Shown here: piece after piece, positions 15,502-28,752 of the stretch
Position numbering within the stretch: the stretch's first letter is position 1
Layout of the letters: each line of letters begins with the position of its first letter
Source: Deltaproteobacteria bacterium
GTDB lineage: Bacteria; Desulfobacterota; Dissulfuribacteria; Dissulfuribacterales; JALVPX01
Reading direction: 5' to 3'
DNA length: 35,709 bases
Assembly (NCBI GenBank): GCA_027023445.1
Contig: JALVVK010000082.1
Span: 1 to 35,709, forward strand
The notes under the pieces: model-generated
The model's database searches: none
The model's input: the letters and a program-made list of their open reading frames with translations, nothing else
Told to the model about the DNA's origin: nothing
Made by a program: the position numbers and the translations under genes

Positions 15502-15961
15502 CTAAGGGGTGTCAAAATCGCATTTGAATCCTCCAAGAATTTCCTGAAATCTCCCAGAAAGGTCACGCAGTCTACCTGCCGCGCCCTGCACCTCCTGCCG
15601 GACCACGGCTACTATGGACTCTACGGCCTTAATGGCTTTGGCCGCTCCCTGCTGCAGACCCTGAACGATCCCGTCGATCTGGCAAGCCCTTTTCCCGGCG
15701 CACTGAGGTCTGTCTCTATCTCCCCTTCTGTCTTCTGCCCGGAATCGAATCCGTCCATGTCCAGGCGCAGGCCCAGCAGATTCTGGGGAAAATCCTCGTT
15801 CATGACCATGTCGATCTCTGCCCTGCGTTTTCAGTTCATCCGTACTTCTTACTGCCTCCAGAACGGCCAGAATGCCCGTAATGCCAAGGAAAACAATGGA
15901 CAAGGCCCCGCCCCCCTAACAGAATCCTTTTCCTGATATTCAGCCTCGATTTTATCTTCAT
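15502..15961 (-). pseudogene. Frameshifted membrane-anchored gene, possible chemoreceptor-like N-terminus
   Basis: A strong ribosome site (AAGGGGGG) precedes an ATG at 15961 that opens MKIKSRLNIRKRILLGG. This runs out of frame at a C6/G6 tract (15911-15916). One base fewer there would continue into LSIVFLGITGILAVLEAV, a membrane helix. A second shift then leads to AEIDMVMNEDFPQNLLG and a third back to GIVQGLQQGAAKAIKAVES and a stop at 15502. The composite of about 150 residues is a signal-anchored, mostly helical protein, reminiscent of the N-terminal part of chemoreceptors but without a signalling domain. It is either a decayed gene or one affected by sequence errors. Confidence 0.5.
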
Positions 15962-16372
15962 AGTTCCCCCCTTGAAATATCACTCAAAGTCATCATGGCG
16001 CAACATTTTTGACGTAATAACAATAAATTGTCATAACAAACCCTACGCCTTCGCCTGAGGATAAAGACCCTTACAAGGTTATTTAAGGTTAATCGTATTA
16101 TTAAAGTTGCCACCTTAATCGTTTTTAGCAAAATAATCTTTTTGTTTTTTATTATTAAAGATATAAATATTATTGACCAAAACGATTAAAACGCTTAAAG
16201 TGCTCGAAATACAATCTTGAATAACTGGGCACGGATGGAATAGATTGGCCTTCGGGGTTCGAGGAATTAAACCTGCTTACAGCAAGATTGACTAAAAAAA
16301 CTCAACTTTCGAAGTAAATTTGCGTAGGTTTTTAAGGTCAACATATTGAAATAATTTATATATTCTACTTAA

Positions 16373-16436
16373 AGAGTCCTTTCTTTTCGATTATAGTGTT
16401 GATCACCAACCCAACATTACAATCAGAAAGGACTCT
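16373..16436. repeat. Inverted repeat with 12-base arms
   Basis: AGAGTCCTTTCT (16373-16384) and AGAAAGGACTCT (16425-16436) are perfect reverse complements 40 bases apart. The right arm holds an AAAGGA that is well placed as ribosome site for the mini-ORF at 16440. It may be the end of a degenerate insertion element, a MITE-like remnant or a regulatory hairpin. Confidence 0.5.
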
Positions 16437-16439
16437 GTG

Positions 16440-16493
16440 ATGAAGAGTAACGAAATTTCCTGGGATGAACAAGCTCAAAAGCAGAGGTTATGA
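16440..16493 (+). CDS. Possible 17-aa ORF or truncated gene start
   Basis: ATG with AAAGGA 7 bases upstream, encoding MKSNEISWDEQAQKQRL and then a stop. It could be a leader peptide or the first codons of a transposase whose body is lost, as it directly follows an inverted repeat. Very low confidence as a functional gene. Confidence 0.2.
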   Translation: MKSNEISWDEQAQKQRL

Positions 16494-16580
16494 TGATAAC
16501 TCAACCTTAGGAGTTGTATAATTAGCTTAAAAAACATTAGATTCGCCATGGACAGACATGGACTCAAATGGACAAATACC

Positions 16581-16610
16581 TTTAGTCATGCCCGACCGGG
16601 CATGACTAAA
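16581..16610. repeat. Long palindrome with CATGCCC/GGGCATG core
   Basis: TTTAGTCATGCCCG and CGGGCATGACTAAA are perfect 14-base arms separated by 2 bases. The core matches the palindrome at 9439-9460. It lies about 165 bases before the first gene of the signalling operon. It could be an operator, a small interspersed palindrome or an attenuator-like hairpin; no T-run follows. Confidence 0.55.
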
Positions 16611-16775
16611 CTCCAAAAAGGTAACCATTGGCGACCCTTGTCAGGGCTGCAAAATTGTCTATGTGGGTCCATGGCTAAAAAAGTCTCTGATCTTGGATGT
16701 ATTATTTGTTTTTACTTTCAACAGGTTATTTGAGTAAAAAAATAATACCAGGGGTTGATCAGAAGGAGGCCTCGA

Positions 16776-17366
16776 ATGGGAAAAAACAGAAAAAACGAGT
16801 TCATCTCCACTTCAGAGGCAAGCAGGCTTTGTGGAGTAGCCAGAACAACTGTTTCGAAGTGGATAGATGAAGGCCTGCTCAACGCCTTTGTGACACCAGG
16901 CGGACATCGCAAGATCGAAAGGGCGGACCTGAAGGACTTTATTGAAAAACATGGACTGGCTCCAAAGGCCAGAACATTCGAGGAAGGGTCAAAAAAGAAG
17001 ATACTGGTTATAGACGACAATCCCGATGATATCAGGCTGGTCCAGGCGGCCTTCCTGGCGGCACAGGACAAATATGAGGTTCATTCCGCCACGGGCGGCT
17101 TTGAGGCGATCTACAAGATCGGCGAGATCAAGCCGGACATGGTTGTTCTGGATATTGTGATGCCGGACATGGATGGATTTTCCGTATGTAAAAATATCAA
17201 AAGCAATCCCATAACCAAGGGGATAAAGGTTATTGCTGTCACTGCCTATCCGGACGAAGAGAAGCGGGAAAGGGCGCTCTCCTTCGGGATAGAGGCCTTT
17301 TTTACCAAGCCGCTGGACCTGGAGGCGTTAGTCAAAAAGATGCTCAGCCTGCTGGAACAAAAATGA
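16776..17366 (+). CDS. HTH-REC response regulator (N-terminal excisionase/MerR-like HTH)
   Basis: A 196-aa protein that joins a DNA-binding domain to a phospho-receiver in the order opposite to most response regulators. Residues about 8-62 (STSEASRLCGVARTTVSKWI, then TPGGHRKIERADLKDFIE) form a MerR/excisionase-type helix-turn-helix. Residues about 73-193 form a receiver domain: acidic pair in ILVIDDNPDD, phospho-acceptor Asp126 in VVLDIVMPDMDG, Thr in VIAVTAY and Lys in FFTKPLD. The ATG at 16776 is chosen because AAGGAGG lies 7 bases upstream. It is the first gene of the operon and its stop overlaps the CheD-HDOD gene by 4 bases, so it is likely the transcriptional output or autoregulator of the system. 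The partner kinase is probably one of those downstream. Confidence 0.9.
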   Translation: MGKNRKNEFISTSEASRLCGVARTTVSKWIDEGLLNAFVTPGGHRKIERADLKDFIEKHGLAPKARTFEEGSKKKILVIDDNPDDIRLVQAAFLAAQDKYEVHSATGGFEAIYKIGEIKPDMVVLDIVMPDMDGFSVCKNIKSNPITKGIKVIAVTAYPDEEKRERALSFGIEAFFTKPLDLEALVKKMLSLLEQK

Positions 17367-18712
17367 ATTTCTTCGAAAAATCCTTTCTCATCTCCCCGGC
17401 GGAATTCTATGTAACCCGCGACCGGAACGCGGTTCTGGAGACCTACCTGGGATCATGCGTGGGAGTAACGCTGTATGATCCCGTGGCAAAGGTCGGAGGG
17501 CTGGCGCATATTGTCCTGCCCGACGGGGATGAAAAAAGAAAGGCGGTTTCCCCCGGCAAATACGCCACCTCGGCCCTGCCCCTGCTGACTGAAAAGACAC
17601 TTGAACTGGGCGCCTCAAAGAAACGCCTGGTAGCCAGGATGGCGGGCGGAGCGTCCATCTACAGGGATCTTAATCTCAACATCGGCCAGAGAAACGCGCA
17701 AAAAGCAAGGGAACTCCTGATTCAGGAAGGAATCCCGATCCTGGAGGAGGACATAGGAGGCAATTTCGGCCGGGTGCTGAGTCTGAAAATAGAGGACGGC
17801 GAGATCAGATTGAGACAGATCGGCCAGGGATTGCGTGAGGCTCCTTTTCCTGGCGTGGTCAGGGAGATAGAACCCGGGGACATACTGAGGGAAATCGACC
17901 AGATTCAGCCCCTGCCGGAGACCGTGCGCCAGGCGCTGGCCGCAATTGACAGCGAACCGACAGACAGCGAGGAGCTTAAAAAGATTATCTACCAGGACCA
18001 GGCATTGACAGCGGACATACTCAAGGTGTGCAATTCCGCCTGTTACGGATTTTCCAGGCGCATATCCAGCCTGAGCCAGGCTATCACCCTTCTGGGCCTT
18101 AAAACTGTAAAAAAAACGCTTCTCGCCCTGTCCCTGAAAAAGGTCCTGTTCCAGAAGATACCGAGCTATTCCCTCAGAACGGGAGAGATGTTCAGACACG
18201 CCCTGGCCTGCGCCTTCACTGCGGAACTGATGGCAAAGGAAAAGGGCCATGACCGTGACAGTGAGAAATTCTTCACGGCCGCCCTGCTGCACGACATCGG
18301 CAAGATAGTCCTGGGCCAGGTCGCCTTTGACAGGTTCGGCCTGGTCATGGACATGGTATTAAAGGGAAACAGGTCATTTATTGAGGCAGAGAAGGAAATA
18401 CTTGGCTATACACATCCACAGGTAGGGGCGCTGATAGCGCAGGAATGGAACCTCCCTCTCGTCCTGATTGAGGCTATCGCCTTTCATCATGAACCGGGAA
18501 AGGCACGGGCGGCGTCAGAGGTGGTGGCCGTAGTCCATGTCTCCAACGTGATATGTTCCATGTTGGGCATTGGCTGCGGGGTGGATGGCCTGGTCAATCC
18601 CGTGCGTCCCGAGGCATTATCCCTTCTGGCCCTGGATGGCAGGGCCGTAGACAATATTATCGAAAGGCTGCCTGAGGTGATGAAGCAGATCAAGCCCCTT
18701 GAAGCCGTTTAA
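17363..18712 (+). CDS. CheD-HDOD fusion protein
   Basis: A 449-aa two-domain protein. Residues about 1-160 are CheD, a chemoreceptor glutamine deamidase: ETYLGSCVGVTLYDP with catalytic Cys32, GGLAHIVLP with His49, KYATSALPLL, MAGGASIYRDLNLNIGQRN and EDIGGNFGRV. Residues about 170-445 are an HDOD domain (LPETVRQALAAID, DQALTADILKVCNSACYG, LSQAITLLGLKTVKKTLLAL, LLHDIGKIVL, HPQVGALIAQEWNLP), a signalling fold related to HD hydrolases whose partners are mostly unknown. The start overlaps the HTH-REC stop by 4 bases and the cheR-like gene follows after 9 bases. The fusion suggests that receptor modification is linked to an HDOD output. Both parts look intact. Confidence 0.93.
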   Translation: MNFFEKSFLISPAEFYVTRDRNAVLETYLGSCVGVTLYDPVAKVGGLAHIVLPDGDEKRKAVSPGKYATSALPLLTEKTLELGASKKRLVARMAGGASIYRDLNLNIGQRNAQKARELLIQEGIPILEEDIGGNFGRVLSLKIEDGEIRLRQIGQGLREAPFPGVVREIEPGDILREIDQIQPLPETVRQALAAIDSEPTDSEELKKIIYQDQALTADILKVCNSACYGFSRRISSLSQAITLLGLKTVKKTLLALSLKKVLFQKIPSYSLRTGEMFRHALACAFTAELMAKEKGHDRDSEKFFTAALLHDIGKIVLGQVAFDRFGLVMDMVLKGNRSFIEAEKEILGYTHPQVGALIAQEWNLPLVLIEAIAFHHEPGKARAASEVVAVVHVSNVICSMLGIGCGVDGLVNPVRPEALSLLALDGRAVDNIIERLPEVMKQIKPLEAV

Positions 18713-18721
18713 GGTTTGAGC

Positions 18722-19588
18722 ATGGAAATAACCGACCAGGACCTGGAAATACTGCTCAGGAAAGTCGTGAAACAGACCGGCTACGATTTCAGCCAGTACC
18801 GGCACGGAACGATCAAGCGGCGCGTATTCAAACGCCTTCTGGCCACAGGCGTGCCGGATTATCAGGCCTACATGCGTCTGCTGGATCAATACCCTGAGGA
18901 ATACCGTCGATTGATCAGGGAACTTACCATAAAGGTAAGCCATTTTTTCCGCAATCCGTATGTGTTTGAACTGTTGAACAGGATCGTCCTTCCAGAAATA
19001 TTCAAAAAAAAGGAGAGGCAAAAGGAGCCGGCCATCCGTGTCTGGAGCGCGGGTTGCGCCTATGGCGAAGAGGCATATTCCATAGCCATGCTTCTGGCAG
19101 AATATCTCCGGGACAAAAAAAAGGATACGTCCGACTATTCCATATCCATATTTGCCACAGACATAGACGAACACGCCCTGGCCAGGGCAAAAACGGGTGT
19201 TTATGAGGGAGATGTCCTCTCTGAGGTCAAGAAGCGGTTCCTGGACAGGTATTTTGTCTGTAACGGCCGCTACTCTGTAACCGACGAGATAAAAGACCTG
19301 GTTGTATTTTGCCGGCACGACCTGACATCATCCAGACAGATCGCGCCTCCCGTGGGAATCGTCCATAACTACGACCTCATCCTTTGCCGGAACATCCTTA
19401 TTTATTTTTCCCCGTCCCTTCAAAGGAGGGTGATGCTCAACCTGCTCAACTCCCTGAATCCCGGCGGATTCCTTGTTTTGGGCGAGGCCGAGTCCGTGCT
19501 GAAGGAGTTTGAATCCCTTCTGACCGTAAAAGATCCGCGAGCCAGGATCTATCAGAAGTGTGGAGACAGAGATGAAGGTAAGTATTAG
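18722..19588 (+). CDS. cheR: CheR-type chemoreceptor methyltransferase
   Basis: A 288-aa SAM-dependent methyltransferase that methylates glutamates on chemoreceptors. The N-terminal helical domain has YDFSQYRHGTIKRRVFKRL and TIKVSHFFRNPYVFELL. The catalytic domain has IRVWSAGCAYGEEAYSIAML (the SAM-binding AGCxxGEE motif), SIFATDIDEHALARAKTG, LILCRNILIYFSP and LNPGGFLVLGEAES. The ATG at 18722 follows an AAGG 7 bases upstream; a TTG two codons earlier is less likely. It overlaps the hybrid kinase by 17 bases. No cheA, cheW or cheB is nearby; the chemoreceptor at 25071-26615 is a possible substrate. Confidence 0.94.
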   Translation: MEITDQDLEILLRKVVKQTGYDFSQYRHGTIKRRVFKRLLATGVPDYQAYMRLLDQYPEEYRRLIRELTIKVSHFFRNPYVFELLNRIVLPEIFKKKERQKEPAIRVWSAGCAYGEEAYSIAMLLAEYLRDKKKDTSDYSISIFATDIDEHALARAKTGVYEGDVLSEVKKRFLDRYFVCNGRYSVTDEIKDLVVFCRHDLTSSRQIAPPVGIVHNYDLILCRNILIYFSPSLQRRVMLNLLNSLNPGGFLVLGEAESVLKEFESLLTVKDPRARIYQKCGDRDEGKY

Positions 19589-22500
19589 GGCAAAGTTGCT
19601 GACAGGCATCCTGGGCTGCATCCTGCTGCTGGGTTCAGGCATATTGATATTTATCCATGAAAGCCTGTCTAACAGGCTTATAACCGCGTACGAAAAGAGA
19701 GGCGTTTCCCTGGCAAAAGATATCAGTGATGAACTCATTCCGGCAATAACCTCCGGCGACAGGGCCGGGGCCCGCGCCCTCCTGCTCCAGCATAAGGACC
19801 GGGAGGAGAATGTGGATTACATCCTTATAGTCACCCCACAGGGGAAAATCTTTGCCCATACCTTTCCCGGGCCAATCCCTTCGAACTTGCTGGAATCAGG
19901 ACTTTTAAACGACACAAGGCCCTATGGGGTAAAAAAAATTCCAGACGTAAAAGGTCTTATCCTTGACATTGCCTGTCCCATACAGAAAACCAGACTGGGC
20001 GTGCTTCACCTGGGCCTGCTTGGAAAACCCGTGGTGGAAGAACTTAATTATGCCGTCAGAGACATCTCCATCATAGCGGCCGTTATCCTGATCCTGGGGG
20101 CACTATTAGCAATTTCACTCTCCAGGCTTATTTCCAGGCCTGTCCTTGACTTCATCAAGGTCACCAGGGCCGTGAGCCAAGGGGACCTGGAGCAGATGGC
20201 AGTTGCGAAAACCGGGGATGAACTGGAGGACCTGGCCGATTCACTCAATGAAATGACAGGGCAGATAAAGGCCGCGCGGGCCAGGCTTGGAGAGGCCAGG
20301 GATTATGTCTCCAACATCATAGAAAATATGTTCGAGTCATTAATAGTTGTTGACCCGGAGGCAAAGATAAAAACCATAAACCAGGCCACGCTCTCCCTTT
20401 TGGGTTACAGACAGGGAGAACTCATCGGCCATTCGGCGGGTCTGGTGATCAGGGATGGGGACAGGATCTTCATGGATCTGATCCATCAACTGATCCGGGA
20501 GCAGGGTCCCATCCAGGATTACGATGTCGTTTACCTCACCAGACAGGGCGAATCCATCCCGGTAACCTGTTCCATCTCGGCCCTGTGGGACGCATCCGGC
20601 AGGCTTGCCGGGGTAATCTGCCTGGCCAGGGACCTGAGGGAAATAAAGCGGCTTATCAGCGAGCTGAGCCAGATCTACAACGGAGCCCCCTCACCCATCC
20701 GGGTGATAGACACGCAGTTCAGGGTTATAAGCCAGAACGAGGCCATGAGCCGGTTAATTGGTGTGAGCTCGGAAGAGGCGAAAGGCAGACACTGCTACGA
20801 GCTGCTGAGAGGCCCCAATTGCCGGACCGGGAACTGCTCCATGCGACTGATCCTCAAGGGGCGCAAGAAGATCGACCGCGAGGCCGAGCGTACCACGCCG
20901 GAAGGGGACGTGATCCCCTGCCGCCTCCTGGCCAACCCGTTCCGAAACGCGCAGGGAAAGATCGTCGGCGTTATCGAGGTGTTTATAAACATTGCCGAGA
21001 GAAGGGAGTTCATCCGCCGATTGGAGGCCAAGGGCCGCGAGTTGGCCGATGCGCTTGAAAACCAGCAGGCATATGCCGACATCATGACATCTCTGAGCAG
21101 TATTATTGACCTGCGCTCCCTCCTGGAAGACGTGCTGATCAAGATTGCCGGTTACACAAACAGCCAGCTGGGGATTATCTACCTGTTTAAAAACAGCCTG
21201 TTGGTGCCCCATGCCGCGTATTCACTCGAGATGAATGGCATAAAGGACTTCCAGCCAGGGGAAGGCATACCGGGTGAGTGCGCCCTGGAAAAGAGGCCCA
21301 TCATGGTTTCTGATGTGCCGGATGATTATTTCACGATCCGCTCCGGCGCGGGGGAGACCCCTCCCAGGCATGTTGCCTGCGTGCCCATAATGTTCAAGTC
21401 CAGACTCGTCGGGGTCCTGGAGCTTGCCAGCCTGGAGGGTTTCGGCAAAAAGGAGCTCGATTTTCTCAATGTCGTGGCGGATCAGTTGGGTGTTGGTATT
21501 GATCACGCCCTGGCCTACCGGAAGGCAGGGGAACTGGCCGCCGAACTGCAGGAGAAAAATGAGCTCCTGATGTCCCAGAACGAGGAACTGCAGTCCCAGG
21601 GAGAGGAACTTCTGGCGTTAAATGAAGAGCTCCAGTCCCAGGCAGAGGAACTGGCCGTGCAGAAGAAGGCACTGGAGGACAAGACCAGACAGGTTGAGGA
21701 GGCCAACCGCCTGAAGTCCGAATTTCTTTCCAACATGTCTCACGAGCTGAGGACTCCTCTTAACGCCATCCTGGGAATGACCCGGCTGCTGAAGGATGAG
21801 GCGAGCGGTATCACAGGAGAACAGCAGGCGGGTTACCTGGAAATAATCGAGCGAAACGGCCAGAACCTGCTGGAACTGATCAACGATATCCTGGACATTT
21901 CCAAGATCGAGGCAGGAAAGGTGGAAATAATATGGAGCAGGATCGATCTCAAGGCATTTACACAGGAGGTGCTCCAGTCGGTCCGCGCGCTTGCAGACGA
22001 AAAGGAGCTGGAGCTGGGGGCCGAACTCGATCCAGAGGCGGACTTCATTATCTCCGATCCGGACAAACTCAGGCAGATCCTGCTGAACCTGTTGAGCAAC
22101 GCCATAAAGTTTACAGAGAAGGGGAGCATATCGGTTATCACAAGGTGCGAGGAAGAAAACAAGATATCCCTGGCCGTAAGGGATACCGGCATCGGCATCT
22201 CCGAAGACGAGCTGGAATACATATTTGATGCCTTCAGGCAGGTGGACAGCTCGACTACCCGTGTATATGGCGGAACAGGGCTGGGCCTTAACATAGTCAA
22301 GAAGCTGGTCGATCTCCTGGGCGGTGAAATTCACGTTGAAAGCCAAGTGGGCATGGGGTCCACCTTCACGGTAACCCTGCCCAGGCAGCCTGTAACCCTG
22401 AAAGAGATGGATGAAAACTGGAAGGAAAAGGTCAGGTCCGTTCTCCTGACCGGGGAAACGACATCCCCGGAGGGGGGGACAGGGCCAAAGGCCCGCAAGC

Positions 22501-23315
22501 ATATATTGATCATAGACGATGATCCCATAGCCACACGCGAGCTAAGCGTCCTCCTGAAGGAGGAAGACTACCAGCTGCATTTTGCCTTTAACGGACTTGA
22601 AGGACTGAAACATATAAGGAATGAGGCGCCCGACCTGGTTTTACTCGACCTGAAGATGCCCGACATGGACGGTTTTTCCCTGATAAAAGAGATGCAAAAG
22701 GATGAACGGACCAGGAATATCCCTGTGGTTGTGCTCTCGGCCATGGACCTGAGCGGGGAAGAAAAGGGTCGTCTGGCAGGCAACGTAAGGGACGTAATCC
22801 TCAAGGGGCAGATAGACAAGGCCGCCTTCCTCGATACGGTCGGCAGGGCGCTGTACGGGGAAAAACCGCCGGAACGCACCAGGGCAAAAGCACAGGTCGC
22901 GGAAGAAGAATCGCGGATTGACGTTCCTCCCGGGCCGGCAAGGATCCTGATAGTGGAAGACAACAAGGATAATCTCTTCCTGCTTAAACAGGCCTTCCGT
23001 CATACTGATTATGAACTTTATACAGCGGAAAACGGCGCGCAAGCCCTGGAAACCGCCAGAAAGGTCAGGCCCGACCTGATACTCATGGATATGCTCATGC
23101 CGGTTATGGACGGATATGAGGCCACCAGCAAGATAAGGGAAATCAGGGAACTGGCCGGGGTGCCCATAATTGCCCTGACAGCGCGCGCCATGCGTGGAGA
23201 CCGTGAGAAGACCCTGGCCGCGGGTTGTAACGACTATATATCCAAACCGATCAATCCAGCTGAGCTCGTGGAAAGGGTCGGCGACTGGCTCAGGATATTT
23301 AAAAAACGAGGTTAA
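19572..23315 (+). CDS. Membrane hybrid histidine kinase (HAMP-PAS-PAS-GAF-HK-REC-REC)
   Basis: A 1247-aa sensor kinase. Residues about 8-30 and 160-185 are membrane helices enclosing a periplasmic sensor of about 125 residues. HAMP (about 185-240), PAS (about 245-360), a second PAS (about 365-485) with a Cys-rich segment [15 protein letters not shown], and GAF (about 505-655) follow. A Glu/Gln-rich coiled coil (about 660-720) leads to the DHp helix with phospho-His724 in [11 protein letters not shown], then the ATPase domain ([38 protein letters not shown]). Two receivers follow, with Asp1026 ([13 protein letters not shown]) and Asp1173 ([13 protein letters not shown]). The first receiver has Lys-Gly instead of Lys-Pro at the end of strand 5. 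The start ATG has GGAG 6 bases upstream and overlaps cheR. Confidence 0.95.
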
Positions 23316-23316
23316 A

Positions 23317-23565
23317 ATGACAGATCCGGACAAAAAGAACTTCCTGAAGGATGTATCCTCCGAGTCATTCAGCAGGGTGCTTCACGCGTTAAGGGCCCCG
23401 CTTAATTCCATCGCCGGCTTTACAACCCTGCTGAGAAATGAATCCTACGGGCCGCTTTCGGACGAACAGATGGAATTCCTTGAAATCATACAACGAAACG
23501 CCGAAGAGATGCGGATGCTCATAGACAGGCTTTCCTCAGCGGTAAAATCCAGGGAGGATTTATGA
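23317..23565 (+). CDS. Free-standing DHp-like (HisKA) mini-protein
   Basis: An 82-aa protein that looks like an isolated histidine-kinase dimerisation domain. FSRVLHALRAPLNSIAGFTTLL aligns with the H-box of HisKA domains, with His23 in the phospho-acceptor position (HALRAP for the usual HELRTP). A second helix follows, DEQMEFLEIIQRNAEEMRML. There is no ATPase domain. GAGG lies 6 bases before the ATG, and the stop overlaps the next gene as ATGA, so it is a real, coupled gene and not a fragment. It may accept phosphate from, or compete for dimerisation with, the flanking kinases, acting as a phosphotransfer or adaptor protein. That role is inferred. Confidence 0.82.
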   Translation: MTDPDKKNFLKDVSSESFSRVLHALRAPLNSIAGFTTLLRNESYGPLSDEQMEFLEIIQRNAEEMRMLIDRLSSAVKSREDL

Positions 23566-24692
23566 AAGACGAGCATGACGCCACCATAATGGTTATTGAC
23601 GACGATGTAGAAAGCGCCCGCCTGCTGGAGTGCGCGCTCCTGCCATCAAATTTCAACGTGGTCAAGGCCTACACGGGAAGGGATGCCCTGGCCCTCCTTG
23701 AAGAGGTCCTGCCTGATTTGATCCTCCTGGACATAATCATGCCCGACCTGGACGGCTTTGAGATCTGCCGAAGGGTGAAGGAAAAGGTGGGCCGGACCGG
23801 CCAGGATTTTATCCCGGTTATCATGGTTACGGCCCTGTCATCCCGGGAGGACAAGATCAGGGGCCTTGAGGCAGGCGCTGATGATTTCATCTCAAAGCCC
23901 ATAGACCTTGCCGAGCTGGTGGCCAAGGTCAAATCATTGTCACGGATCAAACACCTGCACAAAAGCCTTCATGAAAGCTATGAGGAATTAAAGAGACTGG
24001 AGAGGGTCAAGGACCTGCTCACCCAGATGATTGTCCACGACCTGAAAAATCCTCTCACCGCCCTGATGAATTATTTGGAAATGCTGGCCATTAAGACGGA
24101 CAAGTTTTTATCCCCTGAGGATAAATTCTCCCCGCGAAACATACTGGGCATTACTGACCGCATGCTCCGACTGATAGACAACCTGCTTGATATCACCAGG
24201 ATGGAAGAAGGGAAGCTTAAGCCTGATTACGCGGACATCGAAATCGGAGAGATATTCCTCGAGATAGAGCACATGTTTTCCGCTGAGGCCGCGAGAAACT
24301 CTATCCGGTTGACCCGGGAGGTTAAAGATGTACCGGTTTTCAGGGCGGACCGTGGTCTTCTTGTAAGAATCCTGGAAAACCTTGTTTCAAATGCCATCCG
24401 GAGCATTCCGTTCAACAGGCAGGGGCTGATCGCCATGAAGGCAGTGTTTGATAAGACGAAAAAACGGATCGTAATAAGCGTAATCGACAATGGCTACGGC
24501 ATTCCCGAAAAATATCTGGGCAAAATCTTTGAAAAATTTGAACAGGTGAGGATGAGAAAGGAAGGAAGCCAGTTCAACAAGGGCCTGGGCCTTACCTTCT
24601 GCAGGCTGGCAATCGAGGCTCATGGTGGGAGAATAGATGTAAAAAGCAGGGAAGGCAGGGGCAGTGAGTTTATCTTTACCCTGCCCGCCTGA
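23562..24692 (+). CDS. REC-histidine kinase hybrid (cytosolic)
   Basis: A 376-aa soluble kinase with an N-terminal receiver. The receiver (about 1-125) has acidic residues in VIDDDVESA, phospho-Asp57 in LILLDIIMPDLDGF, Thr in MVTAL and Lys in FISKPIDLAEL. A coiled-coil linker leads to the DHp domain with His159 in MIVHDLKNPLTALMNYLEML. The ATPase domain has LVRILENLVSNAIRS, VIDNGYGIPEKYLGKIFEKF and GLGLTFCRLAIEAHGG. AGGGAGG lies a few bases before the ATG, which overlaps the stop of the mini-DHp gene. It is the last gene of the plus-strand operon. The receiver may be the target of the upstream hybrid kinase, forming a cascade. Confidence 0.94.
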   Translation: MKDEHDATIMVIDDDVESARLLECALLPSNFNVVKAYTGRDALALLEEVLPDLILLDIIMPDLDGFEICRRVKEKVGRTGQDFIPVIMVTALSSREDKIRGLEAGADDFISKPIDLAELVAKVKSLSRIKHLHKSLHESYEELKRLERVKDLLTQMIVHDLKNPLTALMNYLEMLAIKTDKFLSPEDKFSPRNILGITDRMLRLIDNLLDITRMEEGKLKPDYADIEIGEIFLEIEHMFSAEAARNSIRLTREVKDVPVFRADRGLLVRILENLVSNAIRSIPFNRQGLIAMKAVFDKTKKRIVISVIDNGYGIPEKYLGKIFEKFEQVRMRKEGSQFNKGLGLTFCRLAIEAHGGRIDVKSREGRGSEFIFTLPA

Positions 24693-25070: not shown

Positions 25071-26615
25071 TCAGGAGGTGGAAAACAGCCTTGTCATCTC
25101 TTCAAGCTTGTCAGCCAGTAAACCTAATTTTTTAGAGCAGTCAGATGTTTCCTGGGCAACACCCGAAACAGAACTGGCCAGGTCTGCCGCCTCCATGCTT
25201 CTTTCTTTCACGCCCTTTACCTCCTGAGAGGCGTCTTCCATGTTACCACTTATCTCCGAAACGGTCGCGGTCTGTTCCTCCGCTGCGGAGGCAATGGTAT
25301 TTGCAAGATCATTTATCTGGGCCACTATGTTGGTGATCTCCTCCACCGATTCCACGGCTATCCTGGTCTCTGACTGGATGGTCTGGATCATGCTGGTAAT
25401 CTCTTCTGTGGCCTCGCCGGTCTGCCCGGCAAGCTCCTTTATCTCGTTTGCCACTACGGCAAAGCCCTTCCCGGCCTCCCCGGCCCGGGCCGCTTCAATG
25501 GTTGCGTTGAGGGCCAGAAGATTTGTCTGTTCCGCTATAGTATCTATCACCTGTATAATACTGCCTATCTTGTCTGAACTCTCACCAAGCTTCTGAATCA
25601 CAGCATTGGCGCTTGATGCTTTATCCTGAGCATCATTTGTAATAGCGGCGGTGTGGGCCACACTCTTGGCTATTTCCGTGGTAGCTTCTGTAAGCTCCTG
25701 AGACGCCCTGGCTACCGACATTATCCTGTCATCCACGTTTTCTGCTGTATTTGCAACTTCGTCAACTATCTTATTCATCTGGGAGGTACCGTCAAAGACA
25801 TTGGCGCTGACACTATCCAGTTCCTGACACGCACCCTTAAGCTGATCTGAATCATTCTTTATCTCCCGGATCATCTTCTGCAGCTTTTCAGCCATGGCGC
25901 TTATAGCATCGCCCAGCTGCCTGAGCTCGCCCTTGACCGTGAGGTGTGCCCTGGCGGTAAGATCCCCTGAGGCGATACTGTTTATAACCGGAAAGATCTT
26001 GTTCAACGGCCTTAAAACCTGCACATGAACCATCCACGCGGAGAACGCAAAGACAATTAAACACAAACAAAGCATTACAACCTGAAAGACCTTGAGCTCC
26101 AAAATACCTTCTATGGCCATCTCTTTGTAGGCCTGTGTTACGGCATTTGCCTGTTTCAAAAGGGTCATGTTGTTATTTTTCAGGTAACTGACTGCCCTGG
26201 CGACCTCAGGGCTGTCCAGGCCGGCAGAAATAACCGTATCAAGATTTTTTTCAAATTTTTTCCACTCAGAAAGAAGCCCGTCGATTTTCTTCAAAACCAG
26301 GGCATTCTTCGTGGGGGCAAGACCAATCTTGGTGCTTCCATCCCTCAGGGCGAAAAGACTTCTTTCAAAAAGGTCCCTTGTTCGGGAAAGCTTTTTCCGC
26401 CAAACATTGTCCCTTGTAGCAAGATAAAGCAGGATCTCCTTTGTCATTTTTTGAGAAAGCATCCTCTGACGCCCTGCCACGTCCACGTAAGCGCTGTTTT
26501 TTTCCTGATGGGCAAGGGTAAGAAATGTCGCTGCTATAGTGATGACGTTTGCCAACAAAAGTAACGCCAGCATGAAGCCGATTTTTCCCTGGACACTGTT
26601 TAGAGAAAACTTCAT
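25071..26615 (-). CDS. Methyl-accepting chemotaxis protein with PilJ-type sensor
   Basis: A 514-aa chemoreceptor. Residues about 10-30 form a first membrane helix. The periplasmic segment begins with [19 protein letters not shown], the signature of the PilJ/type IV pili chemoreceptor N-terminal domain. A second membrane helix lies at about 175-195, followed by HAMP (about 197-250). The long signalling coiled coil has the conserved hairpin tip [20 protein letters not shown] and [21 protein letters not shown] strong ribosome site, GGGAGG, precedes the ATG. It lies on the opposite strand, close to the end of the CheR/CheD operon, and is the only receptor in the window, so it is the natural candidate for modification by them. 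Its ligand is unknown. Confidence 0.95.
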
Positions 26616-26739: not shown

Positions 26740-27093
26740 TCAGTTAACCCCACCCTTGCAGGCAGCCGGGGAAAGTGGCCTGGGACAGTTCCATGGCAGG
26801 AGGGCTTCGTAGTCCTCCAGGGTCCTGGCAAGGGGCGGGTTTTCAAAGATGTGTCCGAAATAGCCATAGGGCTCAAGCCCACCGGCCTTGACCGTCTCGA
26901 TCAGACTGTATTCCGTGGTCCCTGAAAACAGCCCGTTTTTCCGGCCGACAACAAAGAGCCTGATGCTGTTTTCGGCAAAGTTGTTATCAGGCAAAAGACG
27001 GCCGTGCTCAAGATAACCCACAAGGCGATCCCACTGCTTCAGGGTGTACGGAACAGCCTTGCCAAGGAGCCCTTTCGGAGAACTCTGGATTGT
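26740..27093 (-). pseudogene. IS66-family transposase (TnpC) C-terminal remnant
   Basis: The frame is open from a stop at 27094-27096 and encodes GKAVPYTLKQWDRLVGYLEH, then GRLLPDNNFAENSIRLFVVG, RKNGLFSG, YSLIETVKAGGLEPYGY and TLEDYEALLPWN. These are the consecutive conserved blocks of the IS66 transposase C-terminus, including the DNN-x2-EN catalytic region. About eight residues normally found between FSG and YSLIETA are missing, and the N-terminal two thirds are absent. No intact IS66 ends were recognised. An exact tandem 10-base repeat, GTCTATGAAT, sits just upstream at 27181-27200. Confidence 0.8.
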
Positions 27094-27264: not shown

Positions 27265-28752
27265 TTAATTTTTATCCACATGTTTTTTATCTTTTGGGCA
27301 TGCCGCGGTCTTTACCGGAAGCTTCATCACCACGGTTGTGCCCTCACTGTCCGAGGATCTGAAGGACAACTTTCCACCATGGCTTGTCACCACAAGGTAA
27401 GCCATGTACGCGCCAAGGCCTGTACCATTCTTTTTGCCGGCCGTCGCATATTTTTCAAAAAGGCGGTTTCTGATTTCTTTCGGAATCACGCCCCAGTTAT
27501 GCACGCTAACGCATAGGTGGTCTCCCCGGTCCTTTACTTTTATCTTTACCGTTCGATTTTCAGGTGAGGCCTCTATGGCGTTTTTAACAAGATTGTTAAG
27601 GGCGTTCTGCAGGCATACCTTGTCACCCACAAAGGGTAAATAGTCCTCCAGAGAATACATAGATTTATTGAATATGATAACGATATTAACATTTTTTTTA
27701 TCTGCCAGCTCTCTGAGGAGTCCCCTGGAACGTGCCACTATATCCATGAAGTTAAACCGGTCATTCCGGGGTTTGAAGGAGCCGTGTTCCATGCGGGTGA
27801 CATCCAGGTAGGTTTCCACCATCTTTTCCATTTGCAAACCGCACTGCCGAATCTGGCAGCAGTATTCCCTCTGTTTTTCATCCAGCGGTGTCTTTTCAAG
27901 CAGCCTGCAGGCAAGACCGACTATCCCGATGAGGTGGGAGCGCATATCGTGGCGCAGCATCTTTTCCATGTCTCTGCGGATGCTCTCTGTCTCAACAATG
28001 GCAGTAATATCACGAAAGGTGGAAATAATGGTGGGCTCGCCGTTGTAAGTGGCGGTTGCGCTGTTTACCGACATCCAGCAATATGTTCCATCTTTTTTTT
28101 TGAACCGATATCTCTGGGGGCCAATGGCCTCACCCCTTAGAAGCCGTGAGGCGTTCTTCAGTGCCCTGCCCCGGTCATCCGGGTGGATAAGATCGACCAG
28201 GGCATGCCGGTGAAGCGTCATGGAATCAATACCAAGAAGTTCGGCCAACGCCTTGTTTTGAAATATTATTTTTCCTCCTGAAAAAAGGGCCACGCCATCC
28301 GCGGTATTTTCCACCAGGATCCTGTAGCGTTCGTTTGATTCACGCAACTGCCTGTTTTTTTTCCGAATTTGTTTTACAAGGCGAATACGTTCGGCCACAC
28401 GGTTGACGCTGACAGAAAGCTCCTGAAACCTGAATGGCTTTTCTATGAAATCAGCTACCCCTAACTTGATGGCGTCAAGGGCGTGCTGGAAATTGCCATA
28501 CCCAGTGATAAATATGATACCTATATCTTCACTGACTTTTTTCAGTTCTCTGGCAAGGGACAAACCGTCCATCTGGGGCATGTTGATATCCAGAAGCGCC
28601 AGGTCAAATTGCCTCCGTCCGGCAAGTTTCATGGCATCTGCCGGACGGCAGGCCGAACTGACAGAAAACCCCATGCTGATAAGGGCCCTGGAGAGGACCA
28701 CGCACACGTCCTTCTCGTCATCAACAACGAGAACGTGAGTCAAATCTTTCAA
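27265..28752 (-). CDS. REC-PAS-histidine kinase
   Basis: A 495-aa soluble signalling protein. An N-terminal receiver (about 1-120) has phospho-Asp55 in LALLDINMPQMDG, Thr in FITGYGN and Lys in IEKPFRFQEL. A PAS domain (about 140-255) has YRILVENTADGVALF and ends FRDITAIVE. The kinase part has an H-box variant, MLRHDMRSHLIGIVGL, with His268, and an ATPase domain with NALNNLVKNAIEAS, LFEKYATAGKKNGTGLGAYM and SHGGKLSF. The start is TTG at 28752: the receiver's first strand requires it, no ATG is available upstream, and GGGAG lies 5 bases before it. It stands alone on the minus strand between IS66 debris and an empty region. Confidence 0.92.
   Translation of the reverse strand: MKDLTHVLVVDDEKDVCVVLSRALISMGFSVSSACRPADAMKLAGRRQFDLALLDINMPQMDGLSLARELKKVSEDIGIIFITGYGNFQHALDAIKLGVADFIEKPFRFQELSVSVNRVAERIRLVKQIRKKNRQLRESNERYRILVENTADGVALFSGGKIIFQNKALAELLGIDSMTLHRHALVDLIHPDDRGRALKNASRLLRGEAIGPQRYRFKKKDGTYCWMSVNSATATYNGEPTIISTFRDITAIVETESIRRDMEKMLRHDMRSHLIGIVGLACRLLEKTPLDEKQREYCCQIRQCGLQMEKMVETYLDVTRMEHGSFKPRNDRFNFMDIVARSRGLLRELADKKNVNIVIIFNKSMYSLEDYLPFVGDKVCLQNALNNLVKNAIEASPENRTVKIKVKDRGDHLCVSVHNWGVIPKEIRNRLFEKYATAGKKNGTGLGAYMAYLVVTSHGGKLSFRSSDSEGTTVVMKLPVKTAACPKDKKHVDKN

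Follow-up and report, generated by a model that had tools for sequence, protein, structure and literature searches.

The 35,709-nucleotide stretch analysed here (contig JALVVK010000082.1 of assembly GCA_027023445.1, from a Deltaproteobacteria bacterium of the Dissulfuribacterales), referred to below as the window, carries on its plus strand a compact operon of six genes (16776–24692) that joins two enzymes of the chemotaxis type, CheR and CheD, with sensor kinases and a DNA-binding receiver. The first gene (16776–17366; ATG 16776, preceded by a good ribosome-binding site) encodes a helix-turn-helix domain of the MerR/excisionase type followed by a receiver (Pfam HTH_17 and Response_reg), and this protein, HTH-REC, is presumed to be the transcriptional output of the operon. 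It overlaps by 4 bp the gene for a CheD-HDOD fusion (17363–18712), in which CheD occupies about 17390–17830 (Pfam 3e-25) and HDOD about 17879–18682 (Pfam 3e-53). At a spacing of 3–9 bp follows the gene for a CheR-type protein-glutamate methyltransferase (18722–19588; start at ATG 18722 or, alternatively, TTG 18716), which matches Pfam CheR (2e-50) and CheR_N as well as CheR entries of the PDB. The CheR gene overlaps by 17 bp that of a hybrid sensor kinase of 1247 aa (19572–23315), with ATG 19572 taken as the start of the kinase; residues of the kinase are numbered below from GTG 19560. The order of its parts, the domains being those of Pfam, is membrane sensor, HAMP, PAS, PAS, GAF, coil, HisKA, HATPase, REC and REC, and the codon of the phospho-accepting His728, in the H-box MSHELRTP, lies at 21741–21743. 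After 1 bp, if ATG 23317 is the start, comes a gene for a DHp-only protein of about 82 aa (approximately 23317–23565), which matches Pfam HisKA (8e-12) and is devoid of HATPase, and this gene overlaps by 4 bp that of a REC-HisKA-HATPase kinase (23562–24692; Pfam), the last of the operon.

All six genes and their domains lie where a sequence-only reading of the same DNA had placed them, overlapping or nearly so, and the Pfam matches are strong. That reading had also described the operon as a combination of enzymes that modify receptors with a phosphorelay and a receiver that binds DNA, and as devoid of CheA, CheW and CheB. Both descriptions hold, and the part of the window around the operon shows none of the three proteins. 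According to Pfam the operon contains no PP2C phosphatase, HTH-REC and the REC-kinase being present instead, and no Rfam RNA family was found in the window.

Regarding the individual components, Cys32 and His49 of the CheD part, which correspond to Cys27 and His44 of Thermotoga maritima CheD, are invariant in 14 relatives, and the best NCBI model for this part, deamidase/glutamate methylesterase by name, is matched with a score under its cut-off. The fusion (predicted model with pLDDT 84.7 and pTM 0.76) matches T. maritima CheD (2f9z) and the HDOD structure 3hc1 in both sequence and fold, and less closely SadB of Pseudomonas aeruginosa (9qzk). The HDOD ligands H279, H310, D311, H351, H375 and H376 are kept in all 14 relatives, so the HDOD part may bind metal. 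No paper naming both CheD and HDOD was found in a literature search that had most subscription journals outside its reach. In the DHp-only protein, the phosphorylatable histidine is kept and the acidic residue that follows it (E in HELR) is replaced in 7 of 7 sequences; for a protein with the phospho-histidine and without either the autokinase acid or an ATPase domain, a role in phosphotransfer would be the simplest reading, which makes it a candidate HPt/Spo0B-like protein.

Recurrence of the gene order

The core of CheD-HDOD, CheR and hybrid kinase is present in about 15 genomes of the phylum of the window and in one named Nitrospirota metagenome-assembled genome (MAG). The phylum of the window is probably the Thermodesulfobacteriota, where NCBI places the Candidatus Desulfofervidaceae genome of locus L096, since the coil coordinates of that genome coincide with those of G149, a genome from the phylum of the window. 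Among 46 genomes of the class, the window genome as well as G026 and G025 (77 and 74% identity) encode a full-length CheD-HDOD fusion, with further fusions at 37–40% identity in G002, G005, G032, G006, G001 and G004, and in all fusion-bearing genomes of the class the order is CheD-HDOD, CheR and hybrid kinase, then the REC-kinase where the contig continues. Elsewhere in the phylum the same core was found at L128, L129, L131, L132 and L136, with a cut copy at L130. The full order of six genes, HTH-REC and DHp included, is shared by the window genome, G026, L129, L131 and L132, and the exact arrangement is found again in two other families; at the G025 locus (L047) the DHp gene is the last one before the end of the contig. 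Orthologues of HTH-REC head the operon at L046, L047, L129, L131 and L132, while at L136 (G115) the gene lies inside the operon, between those of CheR and the kinase. Orthologues of the hybrid kinase are present at all operon loci, and an orthologue of the REC-kinase follows it at nearly all of those whose contig continues. In the Nitrospiria MAG (locus L064), which was found with an alignment as query, a single-protein query giving no match, CheD and HDOD are separate neighbouring genes, accompanied by CheR and a kinase of PilJ-HAMP-GAF-coil-HisKA-HATPase-REC architecture. Chance does not account for the six-gene arrangement, because other families of the phylum have CheD-HDOD, CheR and the kinase in the same order.

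These operon copies differ from the chemotaxis (Che) pathway and from pathways of alternative cellular function (ACF) in that CheA and CheW do not accompany the operon; no CheW-domain protein stands beside it in 17 operon-bearing genomes, and no CheB was found beside its copies. The source genome (2.24 Mb, 99% complete) contains ten CheW-domain matches, four CheR and three CheD, and complete che clusters are located away from the operon, on contigs C39 (with its own CheR, CheD and CheB) and C91 (with its own CheR and CheB). The possibility that the operon CheR and CheD are spare parts of these clusters was consequently rejected. The sequence-only reading would have given way to a gene order of single occurrence with CheR and CheD serving a complete che cluster, and what was found is an order that recurs widely and che clusters equipped with their own enzymes.

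The glutamate-rich coil and the CheR linked to it

The segment between GAF and HisKA of the hybrid kinase (residues 674–701, 21579–21662) is a coil of four heptads with a Glu-Glu pair at positions b and c of each, and none of the eight glutamates varies among the 18 aligned kinases. Mean pairwise identity among ten representatives reaches 77.5% in this coil, compared with 34% in GAF, 30% in PAS, 64% in HisKA and 58% in HATPase, so that conservation is higher in the coil than in the catalytic domains of the kinase, and the core position a of the coil is free to vary (mean entropy 1.13 bits). Packing alone is not expected to give such a pattern, in which the exposed b and c glutamates are fixed and the core is free. 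An AlphaFold2 model of GAF-coil-HisKA-HATPase (pLDDT 83.6, pTM 0.47), which represents a monomer, with the heptad register read from the sequence, contains one unbroken helix from residue 630 to 747, running through the coil to His728. In the methylation helices of methyl-accepting chemotaxis proteins (MCPs), E/Q pairs are spaced seven residues apart. Judged from these features of the sequence, the site of methylation and deamidation is probably the coil of the hybrid kinase itself.

The distribution of this coil was followed across whole genomes, most of them drafts, with a query of 49 residues, which takes in adjoining residues of the signal helix. In the class, ten coil-bearing kinases were matched, 10/10 with CheR upstream, and 395 genomes sampled from the phylum gave 29 coil matches. 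In the class and the phylum sample together, CheR is encoded directly upstream on the same strand, or is fused, in 24 of the 28 resolvable coil kinases, a total from which five cut by a contig end (G134, G162, G189, G227 and G382) were left out. A set of 50 named genomes provided five matches, those of G149 (already in the phylum set), L064 and L173 (CheR-linked) and L172 and L174 (CheR-fused), and with these genomes included the overall linkage is 28/32. Given the handful of CheR among the thousands of genes of a genome, chance adjacency is estimated at well under 1% per kinase, and the linkage is many times above it.

The CheRs adjoining coil kinases, which were gathered through the coil and not through CheR, form one clade against 28 chemotaxis CheRs, many of them from the same genomes (support 100/99), and the CheR of the window operon falls inside it. 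The clade holds (95/92) after the addition of the CheRs of Bacillus subtilis and P. aeruginosa and the removal of two long rows. At L140, the CheR domain of a CheB-CheR-coil-PAS-kinase fusion belongs to the clade, and a stand-alone CheR adjoining CheB at the same locus lies outside it. The motif LTIKVSxFFR, considered as diagnostic of kinase-linked CheRs, was weakened by the chemotaxis CheR of B. subtilis, which reads TINVSEFYR.

Proposed mechanism, precedents and alternatives

Taken together, and with moderate confidence, the operon is read as a self-contained two-component phosphorelay whose hybrid kinase would be adapted by chemotaxis-type CheR and CheD-HDOD acting on the coil. CheR would methylate the Glu-Glu/Gln heptads that link GAF sensor and DHp helix, CheD, fused to HDOD, would deamidate and/or demethylate the same heptads, and the modification would move the output of the kinase up or down, as MCP methylation does for CheA. 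Phosphate may then pass from His728 to the REC domains and on to HTH-REC, perhaps by way of the DHp-only protein, and HTH-REC, which binds DNA, would change transcription; the REC-kinase may provide a second input or a brake, and the HDOD part would probably gate CheD by an internal signal. More tentatively, and with slightly less than even confidence, the operon may be a member of a wide and for the most part unrecognised class of methyl-accepting sensor kinases, in which a distinct CheR clade has been recruited to EE-heptad helices for adaptation independent of chemoreceptors, here together with a CheD-HDOD counter-enzyme, so that both directions of modification would be encoded with the kinase.

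Reversible adaptation by methylation is textbook knowledge for chemoreceptors, and for a sensor kinase we know of it only in RsbK of Bacillus cereus, where no reverse enzyme was found. The methyltransferase concerned, RsbM, is presumably a member of the CheR family. RsbM methylates the signalling helix of the hybrid kinase RsbK (CHASE3-HAMP-GAF-S-helix-HK-REC), methylation and the REC domain together repress the output, and RsbM is described by its authors as an orphan without methylesterase (PMC4574943). This precedent means that the principle of kinase methylation is already known, and the earlier statement that the combination is not a described pathway has to be corrected accordingly, since a methyltransferase encoded next to a hybrid kinase has been described as methylating that kinase (PMC4574943). 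The resemblance extends to the adjacency of the two genes, those of the operon CheR and kinase being overlapping, and to the succession of GAF, signalling helix, HisKA, HATPase and REC, which the operon kinase also shows in its Pfam domains and in the predicted helix. The two systems differ, however, in that the operon CheR is paired with CheD-HDOD, no CheD or HDOD being described for RsbM; in that RsbK has the PP2C phosphatase RsbY and sigma-B as its output, whereas the operon lacks PP2C; and in the second REC of the operon kinase, the DHp-only protein, the REC-kinase and HTH-REC. New in the operon are CheD-HDOD as a possible counter-enzyme, the signature of eight glutamates in heptads, the association of this signature with a CheR clade of its own in several families from at least two phyla, and the components of the phosphorelay.

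Other known systems share some of these elements. The CheB-CheR-coil-PAS-kinase fusion (G116, L140) combines CheR with a kinase and a coil of similar EE heptads, as do the CheR-coil-kinase fusions of L172 and L174, although the L140 fusion is a single polypeptide with CheB instead of CheD, and its coil is placed between CheR and PAS, not between GAF and HisKA. The CheC-CheD-CheR system of B. subtilis and T. maritima includes homologues of both operon enzymes, with the catalytic Cys and His of CheD, but its substrate is an MCP, it requires CheA and CheW, and its CheD has CheC as partner, whereas the operon CheD has a fused HDOD and Glu26 in place of Thr21. The group-alpha che clusters of Geobacter encode a protein with an HD domain and lack mcp genes, and orphan CheRs of group C, of unknown substrate, lie outside the che clusters; CheA, CheW and CheB are present in these clusters, and the parts of that account consulted report no pairing of CheR with a hybrid kinase (PMC2577667).

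An alternative in which CheR and CheD modify a chemoreceptor, either the PilJ-type MCP next to the operon or others, the operon being an accessory of an ordinary array and the kinases merely co-transcribed, is considered unlikely. The MCP of the window carries QE/EE pairs of the methylation type, an MCP is also near the operon at L046, L051 and L053, and in G032 (88% complete) the operon CheR is the only one found. The MCPs at these four loci nevertheless belong to unrelated types (PilJ, no Pfam sensor, hemerythrin-CZB) and lie on differing sides, most operon loci are without a nearby MCP, the che clusters of the source genome have their own CheR, CheB and CheD, and the CheR clade follows the coil kinases and not the MCPs. 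The sequence-only reading had proposed the chemoreceptor as the modified partner; the MCP at 25071–26615 is not conserved beside the operon, whereas the EE-heptad coil of the kinase is always present, and the MCP was accordingly rejected as a conserved partner. Comparably improbable is that the coil has the purely structural role of an ordinary signalling helix, with CheR and CheD acting on the REC-kinase, the HDOD part or HTH-REC, or serving as non-catalytic scaffolds. S-helices are indeed common across kinases, yet the invariance of the exposed b/c glutamates with a variable core is the reverse of what packing alone would produce, and the linkage to CheR, the conserved Cys and His of CheD and the RsbM/RsbK precedent also speak against this explanation. 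A degenerate or relocated ACF system that has lost CheA, CheW and CheB, with the hybrid kinase replacing CheA under MCP control, is a weaker candidate still. It would resemble Che3 (CheA3-CheS3-CheY3) of Rhodospirillum centenum, a non-chemotaxis pathway in which CheR and CheB are coupled with the hybrid kinase CheS3 (PMC3868531), and side-by-side CheD and HDOD genes in CheR/receiver clusters of other phyla would be in line with it; Che3, however, has CheA, two CheWs, CheB and an MCP, all absent from the operon, no CheA, CheW or conserved MCP adjoins the operon copies, and the kinase-linked CheRs are separate from those of che clusters.

Several observations weigh against adaptation of the kinase through its coil. 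The coil query includes signal-helix residues, so a match to it is no proof of EE heptads, and the four coil kinases without an adjoining CheR (G173, G194, G290 and G351) were all matched at E 2e-4 or weaker. The conservation of EE-rich signalling helices could have other causes. In the enlarged tree, the kinase-linked CheR clade has as its nearest outgroup the B. subtilis chemotaxis CheR, which methylates MCPs, and MCPs are present in every operon-bearing genome tested, so CheR could still act on them; none of these genomes was found to lack MCPs or CheW. The replacement of T. maritima Thr21 by Glu26 in the operon CheD belongs to the same side of the balance. As a mark of kinase-linked CheD, this change was dropped, the CheD of che cluster C39 also having Glu. 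Should adaptation of the kinase through its coil be true, transcriptional two-component systems would carry a built-in, tunable memory with writer and eraser, and the EE coil of the partner kinase would become a candidate substrate, open to testing, for many orphan CheRs and CheB-CheR-kinase fusions.

Surroundings of the operon and related loci

About 840 bp upstream of the operon (15937–16775) are without an obvious gene. Downstream, on the opposite strand and convergent with the operon, lies the gene of the PilJ-type MCP (25071–26615, minus strand; Pfam PilJ, HAMP and MCPsignal). Between it and the gene of a second REC-PAS-HisKA-HATPase kinase (27265–28752, minus strand) is a fragment of an IS66-family transposase corresponding to the C-terminal end (26740–27021, minus strand). 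In two related genomes, the operon is faced by convergent genes of hemerythrin-CZB chemoreceptors (L051, 2999–5425; L053, 15976–18438). The kinase of the Nitrospiria locus L064 (12250–14934) has a PilJ-HAMP sensor, as does the MCP neighbouring the operon in the window, as if MCP and kinase had exchanged sensors.

A second, stand-alone CheD gene of the source genome overlaps a stand-alone HDOD gene (L063 on contig C120, 2655–4123), with no che cluster seen in that stretch, and CheD and HDOD thus seem to travel together. CheD also adjoins HDOD at L054, L055, L080 and L087, in clusters with CheR and receiver genes from the order of the window and from other phyla, and HDOD may be a general partner of CheD in place of CheC.

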